Source: Acidobacteriota bacterium
GTDB lineage: Bacteria; Acidobacteriota; Thermoanaerobaculia; Multivoradales; J023
Direction of reading: 5' to 3'
Assembly (NCBI GenBank): GCA_029263395.1
Contig: JAJCXO010000211.1
Coordinates: 1 to 50,327, forward strand
DNA length: 50,327 nt
Of this stretch, positions 33,648-48,290 are shown piece after piece. The position numbers were made by a program, and so were the translations under genes. Below the pieces are notes generated by a model that ran no database searches, was not told where the DNA came from, and was given only the letters and a program-made list of their open reading frames with translations. Within the stretch, counting starts at the first letter, position 1. Every line of letters begins with the position of its first letter.

Positions 33648-36092
33648 CTATTTGCCGGGATCCCGCGTCGTCGACCTCACCGAAGGATCCGCGTCCACCA
33701 GATCCAGCAGCCGCTCGGGATAAAGCTCGCGGTAGTGCGAACGGCTTGTCAGCACTTTGGTCAGGTAGCCTCGAGTCTCCCGAAAGCCCACTTTGCTGAG
33801 ATATTCCTCCGGTTCATCGCTCAGGCAGTAGCGACGCCACAATGCTGATTGCGGCTCGCCCGCGTTGTAGCCAGCGATTACCTGCGGTACTGAGCCGTCA
33901 AACTCTTCGGATAGCTCTCGCAAATAAGCCGCACCCAAGGTGATCGAGACTTCAGGCCTCTCGAGATCGTGCGGTTTTAGGTCTTTGATACCGATCCGTT
34001 CTGCCACTCCCCGGGCGGTCGGAAGAATGAACTGAGTCAATCCGCGGGCCGATGCACCCGAAAACGCCGTCGGGTCGAAACGGCTCTCCTCACGGATGAT
34101 CGCGGCCAACAAGTGAGGATCAACGCCCTGCTTTTCAGACTCCGTGAGGATCAGATAGCTGTAGCCGAACGGGAACAACAAACGACGAAAAGAGTCAGGC
34201 AAAAGCTGCGTAGGCACCGGGTCGGGGATCCGCTTGCCCAAGATCTCGGCAATGTAGAGGGCGCGCTTGGTATCCCCCGACTGGGCCAACACAACGCCGC
34301 CGGTAAAAGCGAGTCGCGGCTGGGCGACTGGAAAATGCTGCAATACAACCGACCCACCTTCCTCGAAAATCCCCAGGGCCAGTAGCATTTCCTCCGGCTT
34401 ATTCAGGGCGGCCTGCCACAACGGCCAATCCGCGGTTGGCTCCCGAGCCAGCCTCAGGAAAGGGATAGCGGCCGGGTCGGCCCAAACTCGTTGCTCGAGC
34501 TTCTGCCAGGCCCGGCGCCCTTGAGAGTGCTCTTCACCGAGCAACAGCCACGAGGCGTAGAGACCATCAATTTGATCGGAATCGGCAAGCCGCGCTGCCG
34601 CTGCCCGGGCCACCTGCGCGAGGCTACCAGCGGTGAGGCGAGCGAGGGCTGCAGTGCCGAAGGGATGGTACGGATCTTCCTCGAGCGCTGCGATGTAATA
34701 ACCGACCGCTTGCAACGGTTCGCTTCGTTCTTCCGCCAACCGGCCACGCCAAAAGGCGAGCTCTTGGGAGGACACCTTGCCGAGTTGTGCGGCGCGATCT
34801 AGCCAGGCTCCAACGCGCTCGGTATGCCCCTGGACTAACTCGGAGCTGGCCAGGAACAGCAATGCTCGCGCGGCGACACTGGTGCGCCGATGCCGGATCA
34901 ATGAGTCGAGCGCCGCCAAGGCTTTTGCTTCATTGCCGGCCAACCATTCGAGCCGCAGACTGCCGACCAATGCGCCATCCGTCCAGCGCCCTCCTGGATC
35001 GAGGCGGTAAGCTTGATCGAAACCGGCGGCAGCTTGCTCCCAGTCGTCGGCCAACTCCAGGGAACGAGCCCGCTGGTAGATCACTTGGGCTCGCAAGGTA
35101 GGACTTGTGGTCGTTTTCGCCAACGCACCGAAGGCGGCGGCAGCGGCGGTATAACGCTCCTGCCAAAAGTGGCTGCGGGCTAGCGCGTAGCGACACTCGA
35201 AGGCCTCTCGTGCAGTGATATTGGACCTCGAAAAAGGCACCGTAGCCCTCGCCAGGTGCTGGATGGCGCTCGAGAATTCTCGATGTTCGTAGAAGCTCAA
35301 GCCGATCAGCAGATGACTACGGGCACCCTTCTCCTCCGGCAGCCAACCTGCGATTTGGGTCGCCGCACTAAGCGCGATGTCGTCGCTTCGACTCTCTTCC
35401 AAAAGTCCCAGCAACTGCTGTTCTGCTCGTACCCTATCGCCGCTCTGCGCCGTACACTCTGCGCGCATCAGGCTGAGACGGCGGCGGTCGCTACGCCGGA
35501 ATCGCTGAGCGTTCAATGCACCTAACAACCGACAATCGCCGCCTTCCGAAATGGTCCGTTGAAGCAACCGCATCGCGGGCGCCTGCAGGGCCCTCGGCGG
35601 ACCGCCACCGAGAAGAGTTGCAGCCAACCCCGCCGCTACTTCCGGATGCCCGAGCTCATATTGTTCGCGAGCCAGCCGGTAGCGACTGTAGGCCTCGAGC
35701 GCTGGCGTGGCGCCCATACTGGTAGCAAAGGCTTGCTGGGCCTCTTGCCGTCGATCGAGGAGCAACAGCAGATGGCCTCGCAAGTAGTCGAGGCCGATAC
35801 GTCGCGCTGACTCGGGATCTTCCGCCAGCACTCTTTCGACAGCCTGAAGTGCTTCCTCGTGGTTGCGTTCGACTTGTTGCTCGACCAGGGTGATGCGCAG
35901 ATCGCCAGCCATCGCGGACCGTGCGCCGATCAACAACAGCACGGCGAGGGTCGAAAAGACTGCAGCTACCGAGACATTATTGGCTGGACCACAGCGGGGG
36001 CACCGAGCAAAACTCAAGCGCTGGCGTGCCCAAAGCTGAAGGGCCACCTGGCGATACGGGATGGAGTCAGTCGATCCGTTCCACACGACCAC
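33648..36092 (-). CDS. TPR-containing SLT-type lytic transglycosylase
   Basis: An 814-aa envelope enzyme that cleaves peptidoglycan to 1,6-anhydro-muropeptides. The start at GTG 36092 overlaps the murA end by 26 bp. A hydrophobic segment at about 40-60 (VAAVFSTLAVLLLIGARSAMA) is the signal or anchor, after an unusually long n-region of about 38 residues. Residues about 65-630 are TPR-like helical repeats as in the Slt70 superhelix. The SLT catalytic domain (about 650-790) contains IIREESRFDPTAFSGASARGLTQF with catalytic E669, GAAYLRELSEEF, and VIAGYNAGEP. Coupling with murA links cell-wall synthesis and turnover in one transcript. Confidence 0.93.
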   Translation of the reverse strand: MVVWNGSTDSIPYRQVALQLWARQRLSFARCPRCGPANNVSVAAVFSTLAVLLLIGARSAMAGDLRITLVEQQVERNHEEALQAVERVLAEDPESARRIGLDYLRGHLLLLLDRRQEAQQAFATSMGATPALEAYSRYRLAREQYELGHPEVAAGLAATLLGGGPPRALQAPAMRLLQRTISEGGDCRLLGALNAQRFRRSDRRRLSLMRAECTAQSGDRVRAEQQLLGLLEESRSDDIALSAATQIAGWLPEEKGARSHLLIGLSFYEHREFSSAIQHLARATVPFSRSNITAREAFECRYALARSHFWQERYTAAAAAFGALAKTTTSPTLRAQVIYQRARSLELADDWEQAAAGFDQAYRLDPGGRWTDGALVGSLRLEWLAGNEAKALAALDSLIRHRRTSVAARALLFLASSELVQGHTERVGAWLDRAAQLGKVSSQELAFWRGRLAEERSEPLQAVGYYIAALEEDPYHPFGTAALARLTAGSLAQVARAAAARLADSDQIDGLYASWLLLGEEHSQGRRAWQKLEQRVWADPAAIPFLRLAREPTADWPLWQAALNKPEEMLLALGIFEEGGSVVLQHFPVAQPRLAFTGGVVLAQSGDTKRALYIAEILGKRIPDPVPTQLLPDSFRRLLFPFGYSYLILTESEKQGVDPHLLAAIIREESRFDPTAFSGASARGLTQFILPTARGVAERIGIKDLKPHDLERPEVSITLGAAYLRELSEEFDGSVPQVIAGYNAGEPQSALWRRYCLSDEPEEYLSKVGFRETRGYLTKVLTSRSHYRELYPERLLDLVDADPSVRSTTRDPGK

Positions 36093-37320
36093 CTAACATC
36101 TGCAATTTTGATTCCATTTGCTCGTAGCCACGATCGAGGTGGTAGATACGGTGGACGGTCGTCTCACCTCGAGCCACCAATCCGGCCAGCACCAGACAAG
36201 CCGATGCTCTGAGGTCGGTTGCCATTACCGAGGTCCCAGTGAGCGCGGCCGGACCATGAATGCGAGCATAAGTACCGTCGATACGAATATCCGCCCCCAT
36301 ACGCACTAGTTCCGGCACATGTTGGAAGCGATTTTCGAAAACTGTCTCCGACACCGTCGAGACGCCCTCAGCCTGTGTCATCAGCGTCATGTACTGCGCT
36401 TGAAGGTCGGTGGGGAACCCGGGGAAGGGCTCGGTGACAATGCTGCGGGGCTTCAGCACCCCGTCGTTGCGCACCCTGATGTGATCGTCACCGACCTCCA
36501 CCTGGGCGCCGATTTCGTCCAGCTTCGCCAGCAAGGGTGCCAGATCGGCAGACCGTGCTCCATCGACAGTGACGTCACCACGAGTCAGAGCGGCTCCGAT
36601 CAAGTAGGTCCCATCTTGGATCCGATCGGGAATGATCGCGTGGGTGGCACCACCGAGCCGATCCTGGCCTTCAATGACAATTGTCTCCTCGCCAGCGCCT
36701 TCGATCACAGCCCCCATGGCGGTCAGCATCCGCGCCAAATCGACAATTTCAGGTTCGCGGGCACAATTCTCGAGCACTGTTGTGCCCCGCGCCATCGACG
36801 CTGCCATCAGTAGATTCTCCGTCCCGCCGACCGTCGGCTTCAGGAAACGGTGACGGCACCCCTGCAGACGGTCGGCCCGCGCCTCGACGTAACCGTGCTC
36901 GATTGTGACTTTTGCCCCCAACGCTTCGAGCGCGGTGAGATGCAGATCGATCGGTCGCACGCCAATCGCACAACCGCCCGGCAACGAAACGCGCGCATGA
37001 CCACGCCGCGCAAGGAGCGGGCCGAGCACCAGGACGCTGGCGCGCATCGTCTTCACCAGTTCGTAAGGTGCCTCGTCGGGGTTGGCCCGACCGGTGGGGC
37101 GCAGGATCACCGCATCTCCGAGACGTTCGTTCTCGACTCCAAGATGCTCGAGTAGCCGCAGCATCGTGCGGATATCCTGCACCGACGGTACATTGTGCAA
37201 CTCGACCTCGGCATCCGCCAGCAGGCAAGCCGCCAGTACTGGCAGCGCAGCGTTTTTGGCGCCGCTGACAGGGATCGTCCCCTGAAGCCTGGTTGGGCCA
37301 TAAATCCGAAGTTTCTGCAT
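36067..37320 (-). CDS. murA: UDP-N-acetylglucosamine 1-carboxyvinyltransferase
   Basis: A 417-aa enzyme adding enolpyruvate from PEP to UDP-GlcNAc, the first committed step of peptidoglycan synthesis. It shows SGAKNAALPVLAACLL (K22), VSLPGGCAIGVRPIDLHL with the catalytic C117 that fosfomycin alkylates, VGGTENLLMAA, GFPTDLQAQYM, and RASACLVLAGLVARGET. The cysteine is present, so the fosfomycin-sensitive form is expected. It lies 26 bp after the phosphatase gene and overlaps the transglycosylase gene. Confidence 0.96.
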   Translation of the reverse strand: MQKLRIYGPTRLQGTIPVSGAKNAALPVLAACLLADAEVELHNVPSVQDIRTMLRLLEHLGVENERLGDAVILRPTGRANPDEAPYELVKTMRASVLVLGPLLARRGHARVSLPGGCAIGVRPIDLHLTALEALGAKVTIEHGYVEARADRLQGCRHRFLKPTVGGTENLLMAASMARGTTVLENCAREPEIVDLARMLTAMGAVIEGAGEETIVIEGQDRLGGATHAIIPDRIQDGTYLIGAALTRGDVTVDGARSADLAPLLAKLDEIGAQVEVGDDHIRVRNDGVLKPRSIVTEPFPGFPTDLQAQYMTLMTQAEGVSTVSETVFENRFQHVPELVRMGADIRIDGTYARIHGPAALTGTSVMATDLRASACLVLAGLVARGETTVHRIYHLDRGYEQMESKLQMLGGRVERID

Positions 37321-37346
37321 GCCGCTCAGGTTCCTCTGTGAGGCAG

Positions 37347-39041
37347 TTAATGGCTACTCGGTAGTAACGGTCGGCGATCGACGCCGTCGAGATCCGATGG
37401 CGGTGTCACTCCGACCAAACCGGCCACCGTAGGAGCCACATCGACGGTGAACACAGGCTCATCGATGACTGCCGGAAGCGGTTTTGGCAACCGCAGCAGC
37501 CACGGCACCCACCGATCGTAGTCGTAGGGCGAGCCATGGGTCGTGATACCGCTCCGAGTGCGCAAGGTGAACGGTTCGAGCTGCACCAAAATGTCGGCAC
37601 TATGCTCAGGATGAAAACTGTTGGCATAAAGTCGTTGCATGGACTCCTCGCCGGCATACCCTTCGAGTTCGGAACGAGTCCACGCCCGCACGACGAGGGG
37701 GCATTCTTCGATCCATTTACGGGTTTCAGCCTCGAGCTCCGCCGGATCGACACCTGCCGCTGCCACTGCCGATCGATCGAGGTAGAACGACTGTAGGTAC
37801 CAGGCTTGATCGCCGAATCGGGCTCGCAGCCGTTGGTCAACTTGCTGGAAACAGGCGATCTCAGCAGCGCCGAAACGCCGGGCAGCCAACCCCTGGGCCT
37901 TTGCCACTTCGGGTACCGGCACCACGCCATGATCGGCGCTCAATGAGATCAGTGTGTTGTCTAAACCGATCCGCTGGTCGATGGCCTCGAACAAATCCCC
38001 CAACAGTCGATCGAGGCGCAGCAACGTATCCAACACCTCTGGGCTATCGGGCCCGTAGCCATGCCCCACTTTGTCGAGCGCCGAAAAGCCGAGTCCCAGG
38101 AAATCGGGATAGGCATCTTGTCCCAGCTGCTCACCGTCGATCAGCGCGACGGCAAAGTCAGCCAGGTAAGCGTCGCCAAACGGCGTGTCACCGAAAAGGA
38201 CATCGTAGAAGCCGGCATCCGGCGTTGGTGACGCGCTCCCGAGCGGATGCGGAAAGGGATCCGCAATCGGTTTGAACTCGAGCGCTTCGAGTCCATACGC
38301 TTCAGCGTGCGTCATCACCTCGGGAAGTGGCTCCCAAACCTGACCGAAGTAGCGATCTGGGAATCGTTGTTGGTGGTAGGCCACAAGCCAAGCAGGCTCG
38401 TCATCCTGATAATACTCAGAGCTGGTGAAGAGCCCGTCGTCATCGTCCGACCAATAGACGGCGTCCGGTCGCTTGCCGCCGGTGAGCACCGCGCCACGGT
38501 CCTTGCCGCTGGCAGCGAAGACCTTGGATTCGGGGTATCGTCCCTTCAACCAATCGCCGAGCGCTGTCGCCTCCACTGCCTCTGGTGACGGATCGTCCCC
38601 CACTGCCCAGACCTCATCTTTCGATTCCCGATCGAACCACCAGTTGTTGACGATGCCGTGTCTCGAGGGATGAACCCCGGTGGACAGCGTCGCGTGCCCA
38701 GGTGCCGTGGTGGTGATGGCATGATCGTGGCGCGCCTCAGTGAACACCACCGATTCTTCGAGCAGACGGGCGAGGCCGTGTTTGAGCAGCGGCCGGAACC
38801 GCACCAGATAGTCTGCCCTAGCTTGATCGATCACCAGGAAGAGGATCAAACGTGGCGTGCCTTCGGGCGGTGGTTCGACAGATGTAGTCAGCGAGTCGAC
38901 GGTAGCGGGCGACTCTGGAGGAGGCGCCTCCTCAGCACAGCCGACGAGTCCAATGAGAACCAGGAGCGTCCAAACCAGCAGTTTCAAGTCGAAGCCGACC
39001 GGATCTTCCCCGTGGTTTGATGGGTGCAAGCAAGCCTTCAT
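37347..39041 (-). CDS. PafA-like alkaline phosphatase superfamily lipoprotein
   Basis: A 564-aa protein. The start at ATG 39041 is chosen because it puts a lipobox (LIGLVGC35) near the N-terminus; a reading from 39284 adds a repeat-rich non-coding-like segment. Catalytic features are LVIDQARAD (metal ligand D72), HAITTTAPGHATLSTGVHPSRHGIV with the likely nucleophile T112, LGLGFSALDKVGHGYGP, and SLSADHGVVPVPE (second metal pair). These match the PafA-type alkaline phosphatase/phosphodiesterase group, which hydrolyses phosphate monoesters in the periplasm. It precedes murA by 26 bp, so it is probably in the envelope transcript. Substrate preference cannot be read from sequence. Confidence 0.85.
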   Translation of the reverse strand: MKACLHPSNHGEDPVGFDLKLLVWTLLVLIGLVGCAEEAPPPESPATVDSLTTSVEPPPEGTPRLILFLVIDQARADYLVRFRPLLKHGLARLLEESVVFTEARHDHAITTTAPGHATLSTGVHPSRHGIVNNWWFDRESKDEVWAVGDDPSPEAVEATALGDWLKGRYPESKVFAASGKDRGAVLTGGKRPDAVYWSDDDDGLFTSSEYYQDDEPAWLVAYHQQRFPDRYFGQVWEPLPEVMTHAEAYGLEALEFKPIADPFPHPLGSASPTPDAGFYDVLFGDTPFGDAYLADFAVALIDGEQLGQDAYPDFLGLGFSALDKVGHGYGPDSPEVLDTLLRLDRLLGDLFEAIDQRIGLDNTLISLSADHGVVPVPEVAKAQGLAARRFGAAEIACFQQVDQRLRARFGDQAWYLQSFYLDRSAVAAAGVDPAELEAETRKWIEECPLVVRAWTRSELEGYAGEESMQRLYANSFHPEHSADILVQLEPFTLRTRSGITTHGSPYDYDRWVPWLLRLPKPLPAVIDEPVFTVDVAPTVAGLVGVTPPSDLDGVDRRPLLPSSH

Positions 39042-39234
39042 GACGAGGTTTATAGCATTCAACTCACGTAAATCCCAGCGTTGACAACATCTAGCAGAGG
39101 AGCGCTCTGGATGCGCCGACACTCCCACGAACAGCCTAGGCAGGCTTCGACCCGTGAACAGGACCTCACAGTTGACGCCAGCATATCGACGATGCTGTTC
39201 AGGCTCAGGGTTGACTTCCCGCCGCCCGGGATCA

Positions 39235-41649
39235 ATGCTTCCGACCATATCTGGAATCATGCTTCCGACCATAGAGGCTACCAAATCAAAGAGGATTCAT
39301 CCGTTGACAGGAGCACCTGCCAGCACACCGCGAGCCGATACACCGAGAGCCGAAGCTCCAAAAGCCGAAACCCCGAGGCCTGTCGGGACTAGGGCCCAGC
39401 TTCATCGACTCGAAGAGCTGCTCAGCCAATCCGAGATCTCTCCTGCCAAGCTGTCCGACTTGGCCGAGCCGGAACGTCTCGCGCTGCTTTTCGAGATCGA
39501 GATCAGGTCGCTATTACGTACTCCGCAGAGTCCCCCAACACAGAGTCAATCCAGCACGGCGCCGACACCTGCCAAGCTATTGACTGTAGCTCGAGACGCG
39601 GCAATGGCCGGAGTACTGCCGTTAGCGACACCGGCCTCGCTTCGAGCTTTCCTCGACCGCCTCGAAGTCCGCATACGCGACGCTGGGGCGTGGGCCCGTG
39701 ATCAACTTATGTGGTGGCAACCCTTGCCGACACCGACCGACTCAGAACAACTTTGGGCTCAGATAGCAGCAGCCGACCGCTTCTCTTCATCCGAACAGCT
39801 AGTGGAGACTTTTGCCACGAAGTCCTGGCTGGCCCTGCCACAGCTGCTGACAACCGCGGTCTGTAGTGATCTTCATGATCAACTGGAGGCGGCCTACCGC
39901 AGCGAGTATCTGGCTCTCGAACGGGCTGGCGTTGGTGCTGGCGAACGTGTTTCATCGAGCCGGAGCGACGCCGTGCTCTACCTGACTGGCCACGAGCCAC
40001 ACTTGCTGCATGCCGCGCCGCTGGCGGCGGCATGGATCCAATGGTTGTTGAACCATCTCGGCGACCAGCTAGCGAAAGTCGCGCCCGAACGGGCGATCTT
40101 CCCACCCGCCAAGGTGATGCTAGCTCGCTACCCTGCGCCCTCCGCTGGCTACCATCCGCATCTCGACAACCCTGGTGGAGACGATGACAACGGACGAAGC
40201 CTGACGCTAGTCCTCTATCTCAACAGTCCAGAAGAGCCTTGCCGGGGTGGTGAGATCGCTTTGTGGGATACGGGCCAGTCGACCACCTCCTCACCAACTA
40301 ATGTATTCCCGGCCAATGGCGGCTCAGCAATTTTGTTCGACTCCCGTGCCATCCCTCACCAAGTGCGGCCACTGCGGTCCGGACCGGCGCGCTGGGCACT
40401 GACCCTTTGGTTCAACGACACACCTCAACGACCGCCTGAGCCACCGCTCCTGCCAGAGGCCTCACTCACCGATGTTCTCCTGCCAATCCCATCGCCACCC
40501 CTGCCCGCTGAGGCCGTCCTCTTTCATGAACTCGACGACACCACGCCTGCCGGCACCATCACCGTGCGAGACGTCCCGCAAGCACCCCAGCGGGTTGGCA
40601 TTGTCAGCACGGTCTATCGTGCTGGCGTAGCGCTCGAGAACTGGTGCCGCCACCATCTCGGTCTCGGCATCGATCATCTGGTGCTGATCTTCGATCATCT
40701 CGACGAGCCGGCAGAGACCGAGCTTGCCCGACGCTTGATCGATCGATATCCCGCCGATCGTCTGACCGTGTGGGACGGAACGAACGTGGCCAAGGATCGC
40801 TGGCCGCTGCTCGACGACACGGTTCGCCGTCCCATCGAGCACGTCGCCCGATCCGGTGCATCGAACCATGCGATCGCCGCCCGCCAAGCACTCAACGCTA
40901 GCGCTGTGCTCGCAGCGGCCCGTCTTAGCACCTTCGATGACGCACCGCTCGACTGGCTACTCCACCTCGACGCCGACGAGCTATTTGCCCTCGAAGGAGC
41001 GGGTCGAGGCGGCGCTACTCTTCGCGAACATTTTGCAGCCGCATCACACGCCGGCCTCAGCTGCCTGCGCTACGTCAACCACGAGCTGTTGCACCGGACC
41101 GGTACCAAGACATACTTCAAGCTCAATCCACGAGTCGCGGCATCCAAGCTAGGCGCTGTGGGTTGGTCCAAGCTGGTCGAGTATCTGAAAATGTCCCAGA
41201 CCGATCCACGCCCCTACTTCACTGGCTACTTCAACGGCAAATCCGCCGTTGCCGTCGCTCACGGAGCCAATGCCGCCGGGGTTCACGGTTGGTCCCTCGA
41301 GGCACCAAACGCCCAAGCCAGTCGCTTCCTGGCCGGTCCGTGCGTGCTGCACTACCATCTCGCCTCGCGCACCGCCTTTCGTGCCAAATATTTGGCAGTC
41401 GCGAACTCCGACGCACCACCCGGATCCCAGCTGTTCGAGCCCTCGCCACTCGAAGTGTCGATTCGCGACGAAATCCTGGCTCTACAACGCGCTGGCACCG
41501 ATCCCGAAGCTCTCGCCCACCGTCTCGACCAACTGCACGCTCGCAGGACGTCCTTTTCCGACGACGATATCGAGCTACTAGAGTCAGCCGGCCTGATCAC
41601 GAGCCCAGATCTGGAACATCCGCTGCCTAAGTCTCGGAACAGCCGCTAA
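39235..41649 (+). CDS. 2OG-Fe(II) dioxygenase (prolyl-4-hydroxylase-like) fused to a glycosyltransferase
   Basis: About 804 aa from ATG 39235; the frame extends to GTG 39154, and ATG 39259 is another option because Shine-Dalgarno sequences are weak. Residues about 45-195 are helical, Pro-rich at first. Residues about 200-395 form a P4Hc-like double-stranded beta-helix: YHPHLDN with H309-x-D311, [22 protein letters not shown] with distal H375, and R386 ([11 protein letters not shown]) for 2-oxoglutarate. Residues about 455-760 are a GT-A glycosyltransferase of the Glyco_tranf_2_4/GT92-like type: [32 protein letters not shown] with the D579-A-D581 motif, and a late CVLHYHLAS. No signal peptide is visible, so it is probably cytoplasmic. 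It is followed after 32 bp by arginase. A role in hydroxylation plus glycosylation of one acceptor is inference. Confidence 0.85.
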
Positions 41650-41681
41650 TCAGCCAGCCACCCCATTCTCTGGAGACCGCC

Positions 41682-42596
41682 ATGACCGACTCGACTCAGC
41701 CACCCCAGAATCCTTCCGTCTGCATCGTCGGCGCCCCGATGGACCTTGGCCAGTCCCGGCGCGGTGTCGACATGGGTCCCAGCGCCCTGCGCTACGCCGG
41801 CCTGCAACGTCGCTTAACCGCCCTTGGTTGCCGGGTCAAAGACTGCGGCAACGTTGAGGTCCCGGTGCGCGACACCCTACCGCGAGCAGGCGGTATGGCC
41901 TTTCTACCTGCTGTCGTCGAGGCCTGCGAAGCCATCTACCAAAAAGGCATCGAGGCGATCGCCAACGGTGACATACCGTTGTTCCTAGGGGGTGACCATT
42001 CCACCGCCATCGGTACAGTCGGCGCCGCCTCTCACGATCGCCGTACCGGCGTGCTGTGGATCGACGCCCACGGTGACTTCAACACGCCGGACACGTCTCC
42101 CAGCGGCAATATCCACGGCATGCCGTTGGCCGCCCTCACCGGCCATGGAATCCCCGAAATGGTGGACCTTGGCCACCCCGGCCCCAAAGTTCTCGCCCAA
42201 GACGTGATGCTGATCGGTATCCGTGATCTCGATACCGAAGAGCGCGACTCGCTGCGCGCTAGCGGCGCCGGCGTCTATACCATGCGCGAAATCGACGACC
42301 GCGGCATTGGCCCGGTCGCCCGTGAAGCCGTCAAACGTTTGGAGCACCTGCCCCGCGTCCATGTCAGCCTCGATCTCGACGCTCTCGATCCACGCGAAGC
42401 TCCCGGCGTCGGCACCCCGGTCAGCGGCGGTCTCACCTACCGCGAAGCCCACTTGCTGATGGAGATCATCGCCGAGTCCATTGCTGTCGGCTCCATTGAC
42501 ATCGTTGAAGTCAACCCCATCCTCGACCACAGCAATCGAACTGCCGAGTTGGCCATCGAATTATTGCTGTCGCTGTTGGGGAAAACGATCATCTGA
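41682..42596 (+). CDS. rocF: Arginase (ureohydrolase family)
   Basis: A 304-aa binuclear-manganese enzyme converting arginine to ornithine and urea. Family motifs are [35 protein letters not shown] (ligand H), [25 protein letters not shown] (ligand D-A-H-x-D plus the arginine-specific S-G-N-x-H-G-M-P), and [20 protein letters not shown] (D-x-D ligands). These substrate motifs favour arginase over agmatinase. TGGAGA lies upstream of ATG 41682. It is probably co-transcribed with the dioxygenase-glycosyltransferase gene. It ends 69 bp from the convergent RHS gene. Confidence 0.95.
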
Positions 42597-42665
42597 GTCT
42601 CGGACAAACACCGTCCAACGAACCTATAAGCGAATAAGGCTGAGTTATGACGGTGAGAATCTTAC

Positions 42666-45600
42666 TCAGATCAACGACGCCACGAACACCTGAACGTGAT
42701 TTTGTAATGCAAATCGCCGCGCATTGTTCCACGCCCCCTGAGCGGCTGGATGCCTCTTCTTGAAGCCGTTCATGGTGATGAACATCGCGAGGTGAAAGCC
42801 GTAATGCCTGGCGTGGCGAATCATTGCATCGAACTGTCCGCGATTCTGTCCAATGGCGTTGGCACTGCGTTTGAAGTCGCCGATGATGAAGGTCTTGTCG
42901 CCTCCAAACCCCTTATCGGCGTCTTCCGGAGGAATGGCCGAGAAGATGAAGTCAGGCCTCTTGGACTGCCGGCCCGGCCCCTTGGGATTCAAAGGATCCA
43001 TCGCCGGACCACTGCCCAACGGACCATTGCAATCGAATAGACCGTTGTTCAGAGCCTGCCCCGACACCTCCTGAACGCCCACTTCGAACCAGATATAGTC
43101 GAACGCTGCAGGAATGAACCGATCCATGAAGTCACAGATGAGATCGCCAACCAGCCACTCGAAGAAACTACCCTGATCACTCGGCCAATAGCTGCTGCCT
43201 TGCGTCAGACTCGCAATCGAGGGTGCCATGAGAGGCAGCATACCCGTCAGCAGATCGGCCACGGCCTGGCCAATCACCTCGCCAATTTTCTCCTTTACCG
43301 TCTGGCGGGCGTATTGGACCGCCGCGGTTTTGATCGCGGCGACGATGTCCGAAACCGACATCGAGATGTTGATCTCCACCAAGGAAAACAGCCCGGTAGG
43401 GTCCGAATACAGGTAGGGGTTCGAAAATGCAAAGGCATAGTCGTTCAGGGTCTCGGGACGAAGGCGCGCTGGTTCAACAGGGTCACGGCTGAGCAAGCGG
43501 CCAACCTGAGGATCGTAGTACCGTGCCCGCAGATGGTAGAGGTCAGTCTGCGCATCCAGCCACTCGCCATGGAAACGGAAATCGCCGCCCAACACCGGAT
43601 CCAAGGACGCTTGCGAGCCCGACGACAACCGGATGTTGCCGAAGCCATCGTAGTGAAAACTTGCGACGGCAGCGCCACTTGCGTCGGTAAGACCGATGAC
43701 CGAACCCAGCGCGTCGGTCAGATAGTAGATCGGGCCATCCGGGCCATGCCGCATCAAGGGTTGACCACCGGCATAAACGTAGCCGGACTGCAGAACGCCT
43801 ACCGGATCGGCAATCAAGTGCACATGCTCCAAGGCAGGGCTGAACGTGGGAGCCACTAGCACCGACCGCTGCCCCGCCGCGTCAACTACGCTGGTGCGTC
43901 GGCCCTGAGCATCGTAAGCGAAACGGACGAGCTCTTGCCCGGTTGCATCCTCGACGCGCAGCAACTGATCGAGGCTGTCGTATTCGAGCCCGCGAGTTTC
44001 ACCATCGCGAGTGAACGACGTCAACCGGCCATCGGCATCATGAACGTAGGTTTCGGCACCCGAAGGCCCCGTCACACTACTCAGCCAGAATCCCTGACCG
44101 TAGGCGTATGTCTCAGCACCCGCTGCATTGGAAAACGCCTGTCGATTGCCTGCGGCATCGTAGGTGTAGGTAATCGTTTCGAGGAGGTTGTCTGCACTGT
44201 CGTGGAAAGCTTCTTCGGTCAAACGCAACGCAGCGTCGTATTCGAGCAATACGTAGGATCCGTCTTCACGCGTCACGCGCCGTGGCTCCCCGATGCCTTC
44301 TCGTTCGTAGGTTGTGGAGCTGATGACCGCTCCGCCAGCAGCCCGGTGGACCACCGCCATCAGCTGGTCACGATCATCGTACGAGTAGGTCGTCGTGACA
44401 CCATTAGGGAGTGTGCGGTTGGTCAGCCGATTGACGGCGTCGTAGTCCATGGTGGTGGTACCACCCAGCGGATCGACGATCGAGGTCAAATTTCCGACCT
44501 CGTCATAACCATATCCAGCAACCTGGGCAGGAGCGGAGGGCGAAGCCTGTGCGGTGATCGACAACACGCGTTCGTTCAAATCGCGGGTGTACTGCACACT
44601 GCCACCCGAGGGGTAGTCGATCTGCTCGAGAGACGTGGCCCCGTTGTATGCGTAGGTTGTCGTTCCGGTGGCGTCGATCGTCTGGGCCAGAGAATCGTCA
44701 CCATTCCAAGTGAGGATCGCCGACTCACCCAACGACGAGGTCCGACCGATGGGGCGAAACGCGTCGTCGTAGTCGAAATCGACCGTTGTCCCCGAAGGCC
44801 TGACTTTCCGATCGAGCGTCGAACGCGGTCCCCAGGTCAAGGTGCTGACGCCGCCGTCCGGAAACGTTACCGTCTTCAGCATATCCGTCGGCGTATAGGT
44901 GAAAGTTCGACCCAAACCGGTTGGACCGATCATGGACAACAGATTTTGATCGATCGGATCATAGGTGTAGGTTGTAGGGTTCGCTGCGAGATCGCTCGCC
45001 GTAATCAGCTGGCCGTTGGGATCGTAGGCAAATGTCCGAACATTACCGCCCTGGTCGACGATGCGAGTCGGATAATCTTGCGCGTCATCGAACGCACTGG
45101 TCAATAAATAGCTCGTCTCGATGGTCGAGCCGTCGGGAAACGTCGAAAGGATCGGCAATCGATGAGGTGAAAAAAGGACACTGGTTTCCCGCCCGAGAGG
45201 ATCTGTTACGGTCGTCTCGTGCAAGGTGTAGGACGTCGTCCAGGTGTAGTCCCGGGCATTGGTCCCAGAACTCCAGCGGCCAGCTTCGTCGTATGTAAAA
45301 CGAGCGGTGTGGCCAAGAGGATCCGTGGTCTCGAGCACCCGACCGACGGGATCACGCTTGTAACTGACCTCTGCACCCCGGTCGTTGGTTGTCGAGCTCA
45401 GACGCCCGGCCGCGTCGTAGACGAATTGGTGGGAGTTGCCTTCCGGGTTGGCTTGCTCAACCAAACGTCCAACTGGGTCGCGCGAGAACGATGTCTCACG
45501 ATTGCCAGGCATATTCCAACCCACCAGTCGTCCGGTGGTCGACAGTTTCCTCTCCTGACGTCCTAACGTCGGCCCATCGGTTGCAGTCCATAAGGTACCG

Positions 45601-48290
45601 AGCCCATAGGATGCATCGACGACCGTTCCGGTAGCGTACTCGGTGCGCGTTTCTCGATCTAACTTGTCATAGGTCAACGCGACCGAGAAGTTCGGGCTTT
45701 GCATCGTCGTCAGGTTCCCACCAGCGTCGAAGGTAGAGGTGGTGGTCACCCCGAACGGGTTGGTCTGGGTTCTTGGATTGCCGAACGCGTCGTGGTCACC
45801 GAACGTGTAGGTACCGAAAGGGCCACTCTCCGAAGTCCTTACGCCACCTGGACCGTAAGTGAACGCGATCAACAAGTTTCCGGCTTCGTCCCTCTGCTCA
45901 AGCAGATTCCCGGTAGCGTCGTAGGTGAAATCATACTCGGCACCGGTCGGGTAGGTGACGTTGGTCACCCTTCCACCGCTGTCATACTCGTAGCTAGTCG
46001 TGAAATTCTCGATGGGCTCGTGCGCGGGATGAGGATCGATCCGGGAGAGTATTTCTCCGTTTTCGTAAGTGAATTCCGTCACCAAACCATCAGCTTCGAT
46101 GATTCGATCAATGTCTTCGAACTCGCCGTACTCGTAACGAGTGGAGAACCCCAAACCATCGGTCACTCGAGTAACCTTTCCAAAGTCGTCGTACTCATAG
46201 GTCCGGGTTCGGCCGGACGCATCGAGTAGGATCTCTCGGTTGGCTTCGAGATCGTGTGTGAAACGAGTGCATTGATTGTTGGCGTTACACGTCCCCGTCC
46301 ATCGATTGTCTTCGTCGTACTCGATGGCGGCGATCCGGGTACCATCGGGGGTGATGATCGTTTCGAGGTAGTGGTCGCCGATGTATTCGAACGTCGTGAC
46401 CTGTTCTTCCTGATCGATAACCCTTACCAAGTCCCCGCCTGCGTCGTACTCGTAGGTCAAGAAGTTGGACCGCGGGTCCAGGATTCGAACGATTCGATTC
46501 TGGGCATCTCGTTCGAATGTCAGACCGATACCTCGCGAGTGGTTGATTCCCGTATCGGAAACGGTCAACACATTCCCCTGGGGATCTTTGATCGTCGTTA
46601 GGCCGGCACGCTCGTCGACCACATACTCAGTACCGTCGGCGGCGGTCAAACGATACGTCTCAGGGTTGTGAATGGTCGTGATGTCCAGCCCCCAAAGCTC
46701 AACCGGGCCGGGGAAGCTGCCTACCACCAGGAGATCTTCAGTACGTACATCCAGCACGTCGAGACGAGCGAGCGTGCCGGCGAGCGGTTCGTAGGTTACA
46801 GTGACGATCTGCGGTGGTGCTGCTATCTGGCATTGAGGGGATATTCTCGGCTGGAAGCGAGCCACATCCCCATCCGGAAAGGTGACTACTACGATGTGCG
46901 TCCGGGCTGGCTGGATACAATATGTCGGTATCAAGCCCGGCAATCGCTCACCGCGCCAGAAAGCACCCGGTGCGATGTTCTCTTGGACCCGGAAGTCGCT
47001 CAAGCCGAGCGTCCAGCCGATGCCAAAATCGCGGTTGCGCTTCTCACGGCTGTCGTAAGTACGAATCACCTCAAAGTCCACCCCGACCACCGGTACTTCG
47101 AGGTCGAGGATCGGCAACGTAAAGTGACCGATCTTTTGCTCGCCTTCTAACACGACATCGATCGCTGTCGAGGCCGACTGGCCCGCGAAGTCGGTTGCTC
47201 GAAGCCTTATCTGATAGAGGCCGTTAAGCATCAACGTCGGATCGAAAGTCGTCAGCACGTCGTTGGCAACCGGTGTATCGCCGGTCGCAAACGTCGTGAA
47301 GTTCGACTCACCACTCAGCCGGTGGGCAAGCTCCCAGCGTTCGAGGAGATCGCTGCGCACCGAGCCGATGATGTCAGTGAAGGTGATGATGTTCGCCCCA
47401 TCCGCGGGACTCGAGATCACCACTTCAGGCGGCGGCCCGACGTTGCGCATCACCAGCGTTGTGTCTTCGGTGGCGTAAACCCAATAGCCCTTGCCGCGCG
47501 CCATCGTCTGGAGAGTGTTGGCCCAGTCGGGAGCATCGACGTCATAAACCTTCCAGGCATCTTTCGGGGTGGCGGACTCGAAGCCATAAACCCTTTGAAA
47601 CTTGCCTACAATCGACGACAGCGCCGCTAACACTGGCCGGTCCTGAGCCAATGGATAACCGATCAGATTCCAGCCCGCACAGAGCTGGATCGAGGTCTCG
47701 GCGGGCTCGGTGCCGGACACTGCCAATGGATCGGGGTTGGTAGCTTTCAGCCAGAAACCGATGCGATGATCGATAGCGTTTAGATCGCTGGCCGGCAAAT
47801 CAGCTGGATCGTAGATCCGCCAAGGAGCAATCGTGTCGCAGGCGTCGTAAGCGTAGGCCAACGAGAAGTTGCTGGCGACCACTGGCAAGAGAACTGCAGG
47901 GTCGATGCTGTCAGGCTGGTCGGGTACCGAAAGCAGATGCCAAGGTGCACCCGGGCCAACACCCGCCGCGGACGGTAGCGAAGGTACAGGCGGAATCGAA
48001 GGACTACTCGAGGACTCGTCCGGGCTCCCAGCCCAAGCGTCGGATGAACTGGCAGAGGCCAGTTGAAAGATGCCGGACTCTGGCCAGGCATCTTCGACCG
48101 ACGGCAGGCGTGCCAGCAGGTTCGACACGATCGACGGCTCACCTTGCGAGACGCGAAGATTGGATGCTCGACGCACCTCATCGGACCACGCATCCCCTGC
48201 CACCATCGGTAGCAAGCAGGCCAACAAAAGATGGGCCACCAGCCTTCTATGCTCTCTCGAGGGGTCAAATATGCGGCCGTGTCTTCGCAT
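42666..48290 (-). CDS. Secreted RHS-repeat protein with C-terminal PD-(D/E)XK nuclease-like tip
   Basis: A 1,874-aa protein. An N-terminal signal peptide (about 15-37, LVAHLLLACLLPMVAGDAW) is followed by a Ser/Pro linker, a region with PGAPWHLLSVPDQP and GWNLIGYPLAQDRPVLA, and an Ig-like segment (about 300-400). Then come more than twenty YD/RHS repeats (YEYDDFGKVTRVTDGLG, FTYDATGNLLEQRDEAGN and similar). The RHS core near 1,620-1,660 is YHLRARYYDPQVGRLLSRD, ending NPYLYSDPTGL. After the core a 220-aa variable tip ends in K-RPD1780FIF, then IIGD1805FK1807RS and GQFDAMIRHA, the PD-(D/E)XK pattern with its trailing Q. This is the layout of polymorphic toxins. No immunity gene follows the tip: the next gene is arginase on the other strand. 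Confidence 0.85.
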   Translation of the reverse strand: MRRHGRIFDPSREHRRLVAHLLLACLLPMVAGDAWSDEVRRASNLRVSQGEPSIVSNLLARLPSVEDAWPESGIFQLASASSSDAWAGSPDESSSSPSIPPVPSLPSAAGVGPGAPWHLLSVPDQPDSIDPAVLLPVVASNFSLAYAYDACDTIAPWRIYDPADLPASDLNAIDHRIGFWLKATNPDPLAVSGTEPAETSIQLCAGWNLIGYPLAQDRPVLAALSSIVGKFQRVYGFESATPKDAWKVYDVDAPDWANTLQTMARGKGYWVYATEDTTLVMRNVGPPPEVVISSPADGANIITFTDIIGSVRSDLLERWELAHRLSGESNFTTFATGDTPVANDVLTTFDPTLMLNGLYQIRLRATDFAGQSASTAIDVVLEGEQKIGHFTLPILDLEVPVVGVDFEVIRTYDSREKRNRDFGIGWTLGLSDFRVQENIAPGAFWRGERLPGLIPTYCIQPARTHIVVVTFPDGDVARFQPRISPQCQIAAPPQIVTVTYEPLAGTLARLDVLDVRTEDLLVVGSFPGPVELWGLDITTIHNPETYRLTAADGTEYVVDERAGLTTIKDPQGNVLTVSDTGINHSRGIGLTFERDAQNRIVRILDPRSNFLTYEYDAGGDLVRVIDQEEQVTTFEYIGDHYLETIITPDGTRIAAIEYDEDNRWTGTCNANNQCTRFTHDLEANREILLDASGRTRTYEYDDFGKVTRVTDGLGFSTRYEYGEFEDIDRIIEADGLVTEFTYENGEILSRIDPHPAHEPIENFTTSYEYDSGGRVTNVTYPTGAEYDFTYDATGNLLEQRDEAGNLLIAFTYGPGGVRTSESGPFGTYTFGDHDAFGNPRTQTNPFGVTTTSTFDAGGNLTTMQSPNFSVALTYDKLDRETRTEYATGTVVDASYGLGTLWTATDGPTLGRQERKLSTTGRLVGWNMPGNRETSFSRDPVGRLVEQANPEGNSHQFVYDAAGRLSSTTNDRGAEVSYKRDPVGRVLETTDPLGHTARFTYDEAGRWSSGTNARDYTWTTSYTLHETTVTDPLGRETSVLFSPHRLPILSTFPDGSTIETSYLLTSAFDDAQDYPTRIVDQGGNVRTFAYDPNGQLITASDLAANPTTYTYDPIDQNLLSMIGPTGLGRTFTYTPTDMLKTVTFPDGGVSTLTWGPRSTLDRKVRPSGTTVDFDYDDAFRPIGRTSSLGESAILTWNGDDSLAQTIDATGTTTYAYNGATSLEQIDYPSGGSVQYTRDLNERVLSITAQASPSAPAQVAGYGYDEVGNLTSIVDPLGGTTTMDYDAVNRLTNRTLPNGVTTTYSYDDRDQLMAVVHRAAGGAVISSTTYEREGIGEPRRVTREDGSYVLLEYDAALRLTEEAFHDSADNLLETITYTYDAAGNRQAFSNAAGAETYAYGQGFWLSSVTGPSGAETYVHDADGRLTSFTRDGETRGLEYDSLDQLLRVEDATGQELVRFAYDAQGRRTSVVDAAGQRSVLVAPTFSPALEHVHLIADPVGVLQSGYVYAGGQPLMRHGPDGPIYYLTDALGSVIGLTDASGAAVASFHYDGFGNIRLSSGSQASLDPVLGGDFRFHGEWLDAQTDLYHLRARYYDPQVGRLLSRDPVEPARLRPETLNDYAFAFSNPYLYSDPTGLFSLVEINISMSVSDIVAAIKTAAVQYARQTVKEKIGEVIGQAVADLLTGMLPLMAPSIASLTQGSSYWPSDQGSFFEWLVGDLICDFMDRFIPAAFDYIWFEVGVQEVSGQALNNGLFDCNGPLGSGPAMDPLNPKGPGRQSKRPDFIFSAIPPEDADKGFGGDKTFIIGDFKRSANAIGQNRGQFDAMIRHARHYGFHLAMFITMNGFKKRHPAAQGAWNNARRFALQNHVQVFVASLI

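Follow-up and report, generated by a model that had tools for sequence, protein, structure and literature searches.

Does a single bacterial protein hydroxylate a residue and then glycosylate the new hydroxyl? The question is raised by a gene in an Acidobacteriota bacterium (assembly GCA_029263395.1, contig JAJCXO010000211.1, positions 1 to 50,327; this whole stretch of 50,327 nucleotides is here called the window). A single open frame on the forward strand encodes 804 amino acids, with a 2-oxoglutarate (2OG) oxygenase domain and a glycosyltransferase (GT) domain in one chain. The original prediction was that the two could act in succession, with eukaryotic parallels in Skp1, whose hydroxyproline is made and then glycosylated, and in the lysyl hydroxylase LH3, which has both kinds of domain. 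The gene, its parts and its downstream neighbor are listed below, with identities to homologues from three other genomes (L001, G386 and G425).

39235..41649, + strand: fusion gene, comprising an N-terminal region, a predicted PHD-type 2OG oxygenase, a linker, a predicted GT2-like glycosyltransferase and a C-terminal tail
39235..39375, + strand: residues 1-47, Pro/Ala-rich, nearly all without counterpart in the closest homologue
39376..39786, + strand: residues 48-184, N-terminal region, identity 64% to L001, 35-37% to G386 (alignment-dependent) and 32% to G425
39787..40434, + strand: residues 185-400, predicted PHD/EGLN-type 2OG-Fe(II) oxygenase domain (family and conserved residues)
40159..40167, + strand: H309-L310-D311, predicted Fe(II) ligands (motif, homologue alignment)
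40357..40359, + strand: H375, third predicted Fe(II) ligand (motif, homologue alignment)
40390..40392, + strand: R386, predicted ligand of the 2OG C5 carboxylate (aligns with an EGLN1 arginine)
40435..40584, + strand: residues 401-450, linker; 11 of its residues are proline, and 5 of these are invariant in all four homologues
40585..41454, + strand: residues 451-740, predicted glycosyltransferase domain (PF13704); its homology to standalone GTs of genome G221 extends through most of the domain
40969..40977, + strand: D579-A580-D581, DxD motif (two homologues have DAD and two have DSD)
41455..41646, + strand: residues 741-804, C-terminal tail, less conserved (homologue comparison)
41682..42596, + strand: arginase-family gene, 32 bases downstream of the fusion gene stop

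The start codon of the fusion gene is uncertain, as the frame stays open upstream of 39235 (GTG at 39154) and the protein of the closest homologue has its start near residue 46 of the window protein. The remaining landmarks are where they had been placed: H309-x-D311, H375, R386 and the DAD motif (579-581) all have the residue numbers first given to them, and 32 bases do separate the stop of the fusion gene from the ATG of the arginase gene (PF00491, E 2.4e-75). A membrane helix is not evident in the fusion protein, the maximum mean hydropathy of any 19-residue stretch being 1.33. The 804-residue protein has no NCBIfam match at E up to 1. Its PHROGs matches, to a 2OG-oxygenase family (E 8.7e-6) and weakly to a "DNA endonuclease" family (E 0.0068), both lie over the oxygenase domain. 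A GGDEF_2 match in one of the four homologues (E 0.01) was taken as chance. Predicted structures were too poor to interpret (pLDDT 37.2 for the full-length window and L001 proteins, 43.8 for the GT region), and thus the DSBH and GT-A folds are inferred from sequence families.

Is the fusion real? The same domain order, uninterrupted by a stop, is present in L001, G386 and G425, whose proteins are 73, 48 and 45% identical to the window protein. L001 is the Acidobacteriota MAG OFTM268, and its fusion protein is identical to that of genome G397. All four fusions keep HxD...H...R and D-A/S-D. Assembly error had been raised as an objection to the prediction. The recurrence of one order over this range of identity, with the catalytic residues kept and with different neighbors in two of the three genomes, leaves almost no room for an assembly error or a chance joining of two genes.

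Counting the window's own genome, 4 of the 72 genomes searched in the order have a full-length fusion; for the class the figure is 4 of 148 (any match, 7 of 148), and for a sample of the phylum it is 2 of 396 (any match, 8 of 396). The four come from two genera of two families. Six further genomes of the phylum sample have partial matches to the fusion protein. Open reading frames were read at several such loci: the partial matches at L004 (a receiver-domain-like stretch) and L008 (helicase-like) were set aside as chance, and L005 and L006 were taken as standalone oxygenases and L007 as a standalone GT pair, rather than fusions; L009 and L054 are one and the same oxygenase of G334. Plasmids and phages gave no match (E up to 1e-3), and no relative was confirmed in the viral contigs scanned. 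A contig scan for exact occurrences of peptide patterns taken from the window protein recovered L001 only; such a scan reaches close relatives only, so G386 and G425 were either missed or absent from the data set. When a split version of the fusion was sought with the GT alignment, the matches beyond the four fusions were weak and partial, in 4 of the 148 class genomes.

In a tree of oxygenase domains, the four fused domains make up one side of a branch with support 98/98 that is present in 96% of 200 bootstrap trees; this support covers the split of the four only and not their place among other oxygenases. One sequence in that tree, L048, was cut to 149 amino acids, and L020, L057 and L054 sit on long branches. 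Between the window protein and L001, dN/dS is 0.156 for the oxygenase and 0.171 for the GT, and the N-terminal region and the tail have higher values, 0.219 and 0.378 respectively; these values are rough because dS is near 1, and more distant pairs, near or at saturation, were not used. By this rough measure, both domains are under purifying selection in the pair. G386 and G425, which belong to one genus, are 47% identical in the oxygenase and 55% in the GT, about as far apart as each is from the window protein, a distance that may reflect horizontal transfer or a divergence of long standing.

A fusion is by itself no proof of a common substrate, and conservation is lower in the linker and the tail than in the two domains. 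The domains might be merely joined and act on different substrates. We consider this very improbable, since the fusion has been kept in two families of the order, down to the most distant homologue at 45% identity, with both sites intact.

What kind of oxygenase is joined to the GT? PF13640 (2OG-FeII_Oxy_3) matches residues 295-394 (E 6e-18, 66 bits; curated Pfam cut-off 27), and PF13640 and PF13704 each match all four fusion homologues (E up to 0.1). In a search of solved-structure sequences, the top matches of residues 241-400 are EGLN2 (E 1e-12) and EGLN1 (from 3.1e-10), followed by 6ey1/6f0w from Trichoplax (3.4e-9), 4iw3, the PPHD of Pseudomonas (1.5e-5), and 6iuq, a chain named prolyl 4-hydroxylase (5.5e-5). 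The available text of PMC7864055 gives 6f0w as the Trichoplax enzyme and 4iw3 as PPHD. A four-row profile of the fusions ranks the same solved families as the single sequence does.

The window protein coincides with EGLN1 at R243-x-D245, Y299-P, H309-x-D311-N-P, G-R321, Y328-L-N, G-G, H375, R386 and W392. Most of these positions (R243, D245, H309, D311, R321, Y328-L-N, G-G, H375, R386 and W392) are common to the standalone bacterial oxygenases L005 and L030, and R243, D245, Y299, H309, D311, R321, Y328, H375, R386 and W392 are invariant in all four fusion homologues. We take the EGLN1 arginine aligned with R386 to be Arg383, follow the usual numbering for the metal ligands of EGLN1, and assign R-x-D to the finger loop. 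Arg383 of EGLN1 is described as binding the C5 carboxylate of 2OG (PMC10952196, available part). Based on its closeness to EGLN and PPHD and on the active-site and finger-loop residues in common, we place the 2OG domain in the PHD/EGLN type by sequence and conclude that it is probably a prolyl hydroxylase.

Outside the fusions, PHD-type matches with E below 1e-30 were found in 12 of the 396 phylum-sample genomes (any match, 43 of 396); among the 12, G132 is itself a row of the query, a stop interrupts the match in three, and the match in G215 is divided between two frames. In the four fusion genomes, the search gave no full-length PHD-type match besides the fused copy (G397 being only 86% complete). 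The window genome and G397 each have one further weak partial match.

The other half of the protein matches a single GT family at E up to 1, PF13704 (Glyco_tranf_2_4), at residues 465-588 (E 1.1e-7, 32.6 bits; curated Pfam cut-off 27.5). This family is broad: of 14 control genomes, 7 have a match scoring above the cut-off. The DxD motif is kept in all four fusion homologues. A four-row GT profile aligned with a standalone G221 GT over 239 columns (hhalign probability 96.6%, E 4.9e-10, a single comparison). That GT is one of two in tandem (L007, 314-1279 and 1276-2280) of the same family as the fused domain; the pair is homologous to it and has no hydroxylase domain, and the first GT matches PF13704 alone. 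No solved GT structure was matched by the sequence of the window protein or by the four-row profile. With a score above the cut-off and a DxD motif, the domain classifies as a PF13704 GT2-like glycosyltransferase, and its family membership suggests a GT-A fold.

How might the two domains work together? We postulate a soluble, cytosolic enzyme that modifies protein in two steps. In the 2OG domain, Fe(II) would be bound by H309, D311 and H375 and 2-oxoglutarate by R386, and the target, a prolyl residue in a protein, would be hydroxylated while positioned beneath the R-x-D finger loop. The GT domain would bind a nucleotide sugar and a divalent metal through its DxD motif and would then glycosylate the hydroxyl just made. 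Having both domains in one chain could speed the hand-over and make glycosylation dependent on O2 and 2OG. The two domain families, the catalytic residues, the conservation of the fusion and the lack of an evident membrane segment are all consistent with this model. We see an even chance, more than for any other reading, that the protein is an O2- and 2OG-dependent soluble prolyl hydroxylase whose protein product is glycosylated by the fused GT, where the proline target, the protein substrate, the sequential action and the sugar are the parts we infer.

Other 2OG proteins were noticed along the way. The window genome has a second fusion of this general kind (L018; contig C187, 1423-3168, - strand), in which a GT4-type GT (PF00534/PF13692) is followed by a 2OG-Fe(II) domain (PF13640) and which adjoins an SGNH-hydrolase-like ORF. 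Like the window fusion, it has a GT and a 2OG domain in one chain, but its GT is of the GT4 type and comes first, and its oxygenase is of another subtype: the two oxygenase domains align with an hhalign probability of 6.5% and E 0.0057, and the A6 profile matches with E 1.5e-4 over 50 positions. The same genome encodes a 524-residue 2OG-Fe(II) protein (L019; contig C231, 907-2481, - strand), whose C-terminal part is unassigned, with methyltransferase-like and SGNH-like ORFs beside it, by reading. In G246, a large ORF (L072; 1-1935, + strand) has a sulfatase-like start, by reading, and a 2OG-Fe(II)-like region at its end.

Because a GT4-2OG fusion lies beside an SGNH-hydrolase-like ORF in the window genome, fusion alone does not imply protein modification, and a glycan-directed role has to be considered. 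The substrate of both domains could be a small molecule, a lipid or a glycan of the cell surface, with the 2OG domain hydroxylating a sugar or aglycone that the GT extends, and no protein being modified. PF13704 GTs often build glycans, and a substrate protein is not evident near the fusion gene. However, the fused oxygenase is predicted to be of the PHD type with an R-x-D finger loop, unlike that of L018, and no glycan cluster was seen in the flanks read in the window (36000-45000), in L001 (about 6 kb each side), in G386 (9.7 kb upstream, 7.8 kb downstream) or in G425 (almost only downstream, as the gene is at a contig end). We regard the glycan-directed role as possible but unlikely.

Could the neighbors reveal the function? 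The survey of homologues that had been suggested bore out the domain order in three further genomes, whereas neighbors are conserved in the closest relative only. MurA-like, phosphodiesterase and arginase genes are common to the window and L001/G397 alone. The gap between fusion and arginase genes is 28 bases in L001, and an arginase kept in the closest relative only says little about function. By reading, the G386 gene has an adenosine-deaminase-like ORF upstream, and the G425 gene, at a contig end, has a sigma-factor-like ORF as a neighbor. A conserved neighborhood is thus ruled out, and function cannot be read from context. Farther along the window (42666-48290, - strand), reading of the ORFs showed a 1874-residue protein that resembles RHS/YD-repeat proteins and ends in a distinct C-terminal part; it may be a polymorphic toxin.

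The linker brings up another explanation. Five of its 11 prolines (401, 417, 421, 424 and 438) are identical in all four homologues, a pattern compatible with self-modification. The hydroxylase might be a regulator that senses O2 or 2OG and hydroxylates itself or a partner, thereby switching a GT whose acceptor is unrelated. In animals and in protists, O2 sensing is a described role of PHD-type enzymes (PMC7864055, available part), but a plain structural linker would also have conserved prolines. We consider a regulatory role of this kind decidedly unlikely.

If the postulated prolyl hydroxylation and glycosylation do occur, which protein is the acceptor? Pseudomonas PPHD hydroxylates EF-Tu, according to the available text of PMC7864055. 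All 9 of the EF-Tu N-terminal loci inspected have the switch-I proline of the APEE motif; they come from 6 genomes, some with the fusion and some lacking it. We take this proline to be the PPHD site; its presence in fusion and non-fusion genomes alike does not discriminate between them. EF-Tu is a candidate acceptor in the broadest form of our proposal, in which one fused bacterial enzyme carries out O2-dependent hydroxyproline (Hyp)-linked glycosylation of a cytosolic protein, as a counterpart of the protist Skp1 pathway. We hold this broadest form tentatively and with some doubt.

No bacterial PHD-GT fusion was reported among the matches listed in open-licence literature (titles and abstract starts), and this silence is weak evidence of absence. 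Both domain families are already known, as are, from the available text, an animal hydroxylase-GT protein (LH3, PMC6082870), protist fusions of consecutive enzymes, and cytosolic Hyp-glycosylation as an oxygen readout in protists (PMC8724618). A bacterial PHD-GT enzyme, if our proposal is true, would suggest that bacteria, too, invented or retained Hyp-glycosylation chemistry. The fusion is one protein in which both the hydroxylation and the glycosylation step can be assayed, and it gives a handle on the function of bacterial PHD-type enzymes, for which EF-Tu is the only substrate named in the available text.

The known systems resemble the window fusion in different ways. In LH3, the GT is at the N-terminus and the hydroxylase at the C-terminus. 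An accessory domain lies between the two sites of LH3, and the enzyme acts on collagen lysine (PMC6082870, available part). LH3/PLOD3 and mimivirus L230, as described in the available text, each have a lysyl hydroxylase and a GT in one chain, and to this extent the parallel originally drawn with LH3 stands. It does not extend further: the 40 sequences from the search of solved structures include no PLOD chain, and the window protein has the reverse order, hydroxylase and then GT. EGLN1 and EGLN2, the Trichoplax PHD, Pseudomonas PPHD and the PhyA of Dictyostelium and Toxoplasma appear to be of the same oxygenase subtype as the window fusion, which has the Fe and 2OG residues, the R-x-D finger-loop residues, HxDNP, YLN and W in common with EGLN1. 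A GT fusion is not mentioned for these enzymes in the available text, whereas the window fusion has a GT.

The parallel with Skp1 gains weight from the predicted PHD/EGLN type of the 2OG domain, which is also the type of the enzyme that hydroxylates Skp1. In Dictyostelium and Toxoplasma this enzyme is PhyA, and it acts on Skp1 ahead of glycosylation (PMC7864055, available part). The Skp1 pathway is eukaryotic and acts on Skp1, whereas the window fusion is bacterial. The initiating GT also differs, as it is pp-alphaGlcNAcT in Dictyostelium and a predicted PF13704 enzyme here; a GT2-family enzyme adds the second sugar in Dictyostelium. The GTs of the Skp1 pathway are soluble in the cytosol, and its consecutive (odd-even) enzymes are frequently fused in protists (PMC8724618, available part). 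By our reading, a hydroxylase and the first GT may be counted as such a consecutive pair, and the hydroxylase-GT idea thus has a precedent. PHD-type hydroxylation followed by cytosolic glycosylation in the Skp1 pathway would parallel the two steps that we propose for the window fusion.
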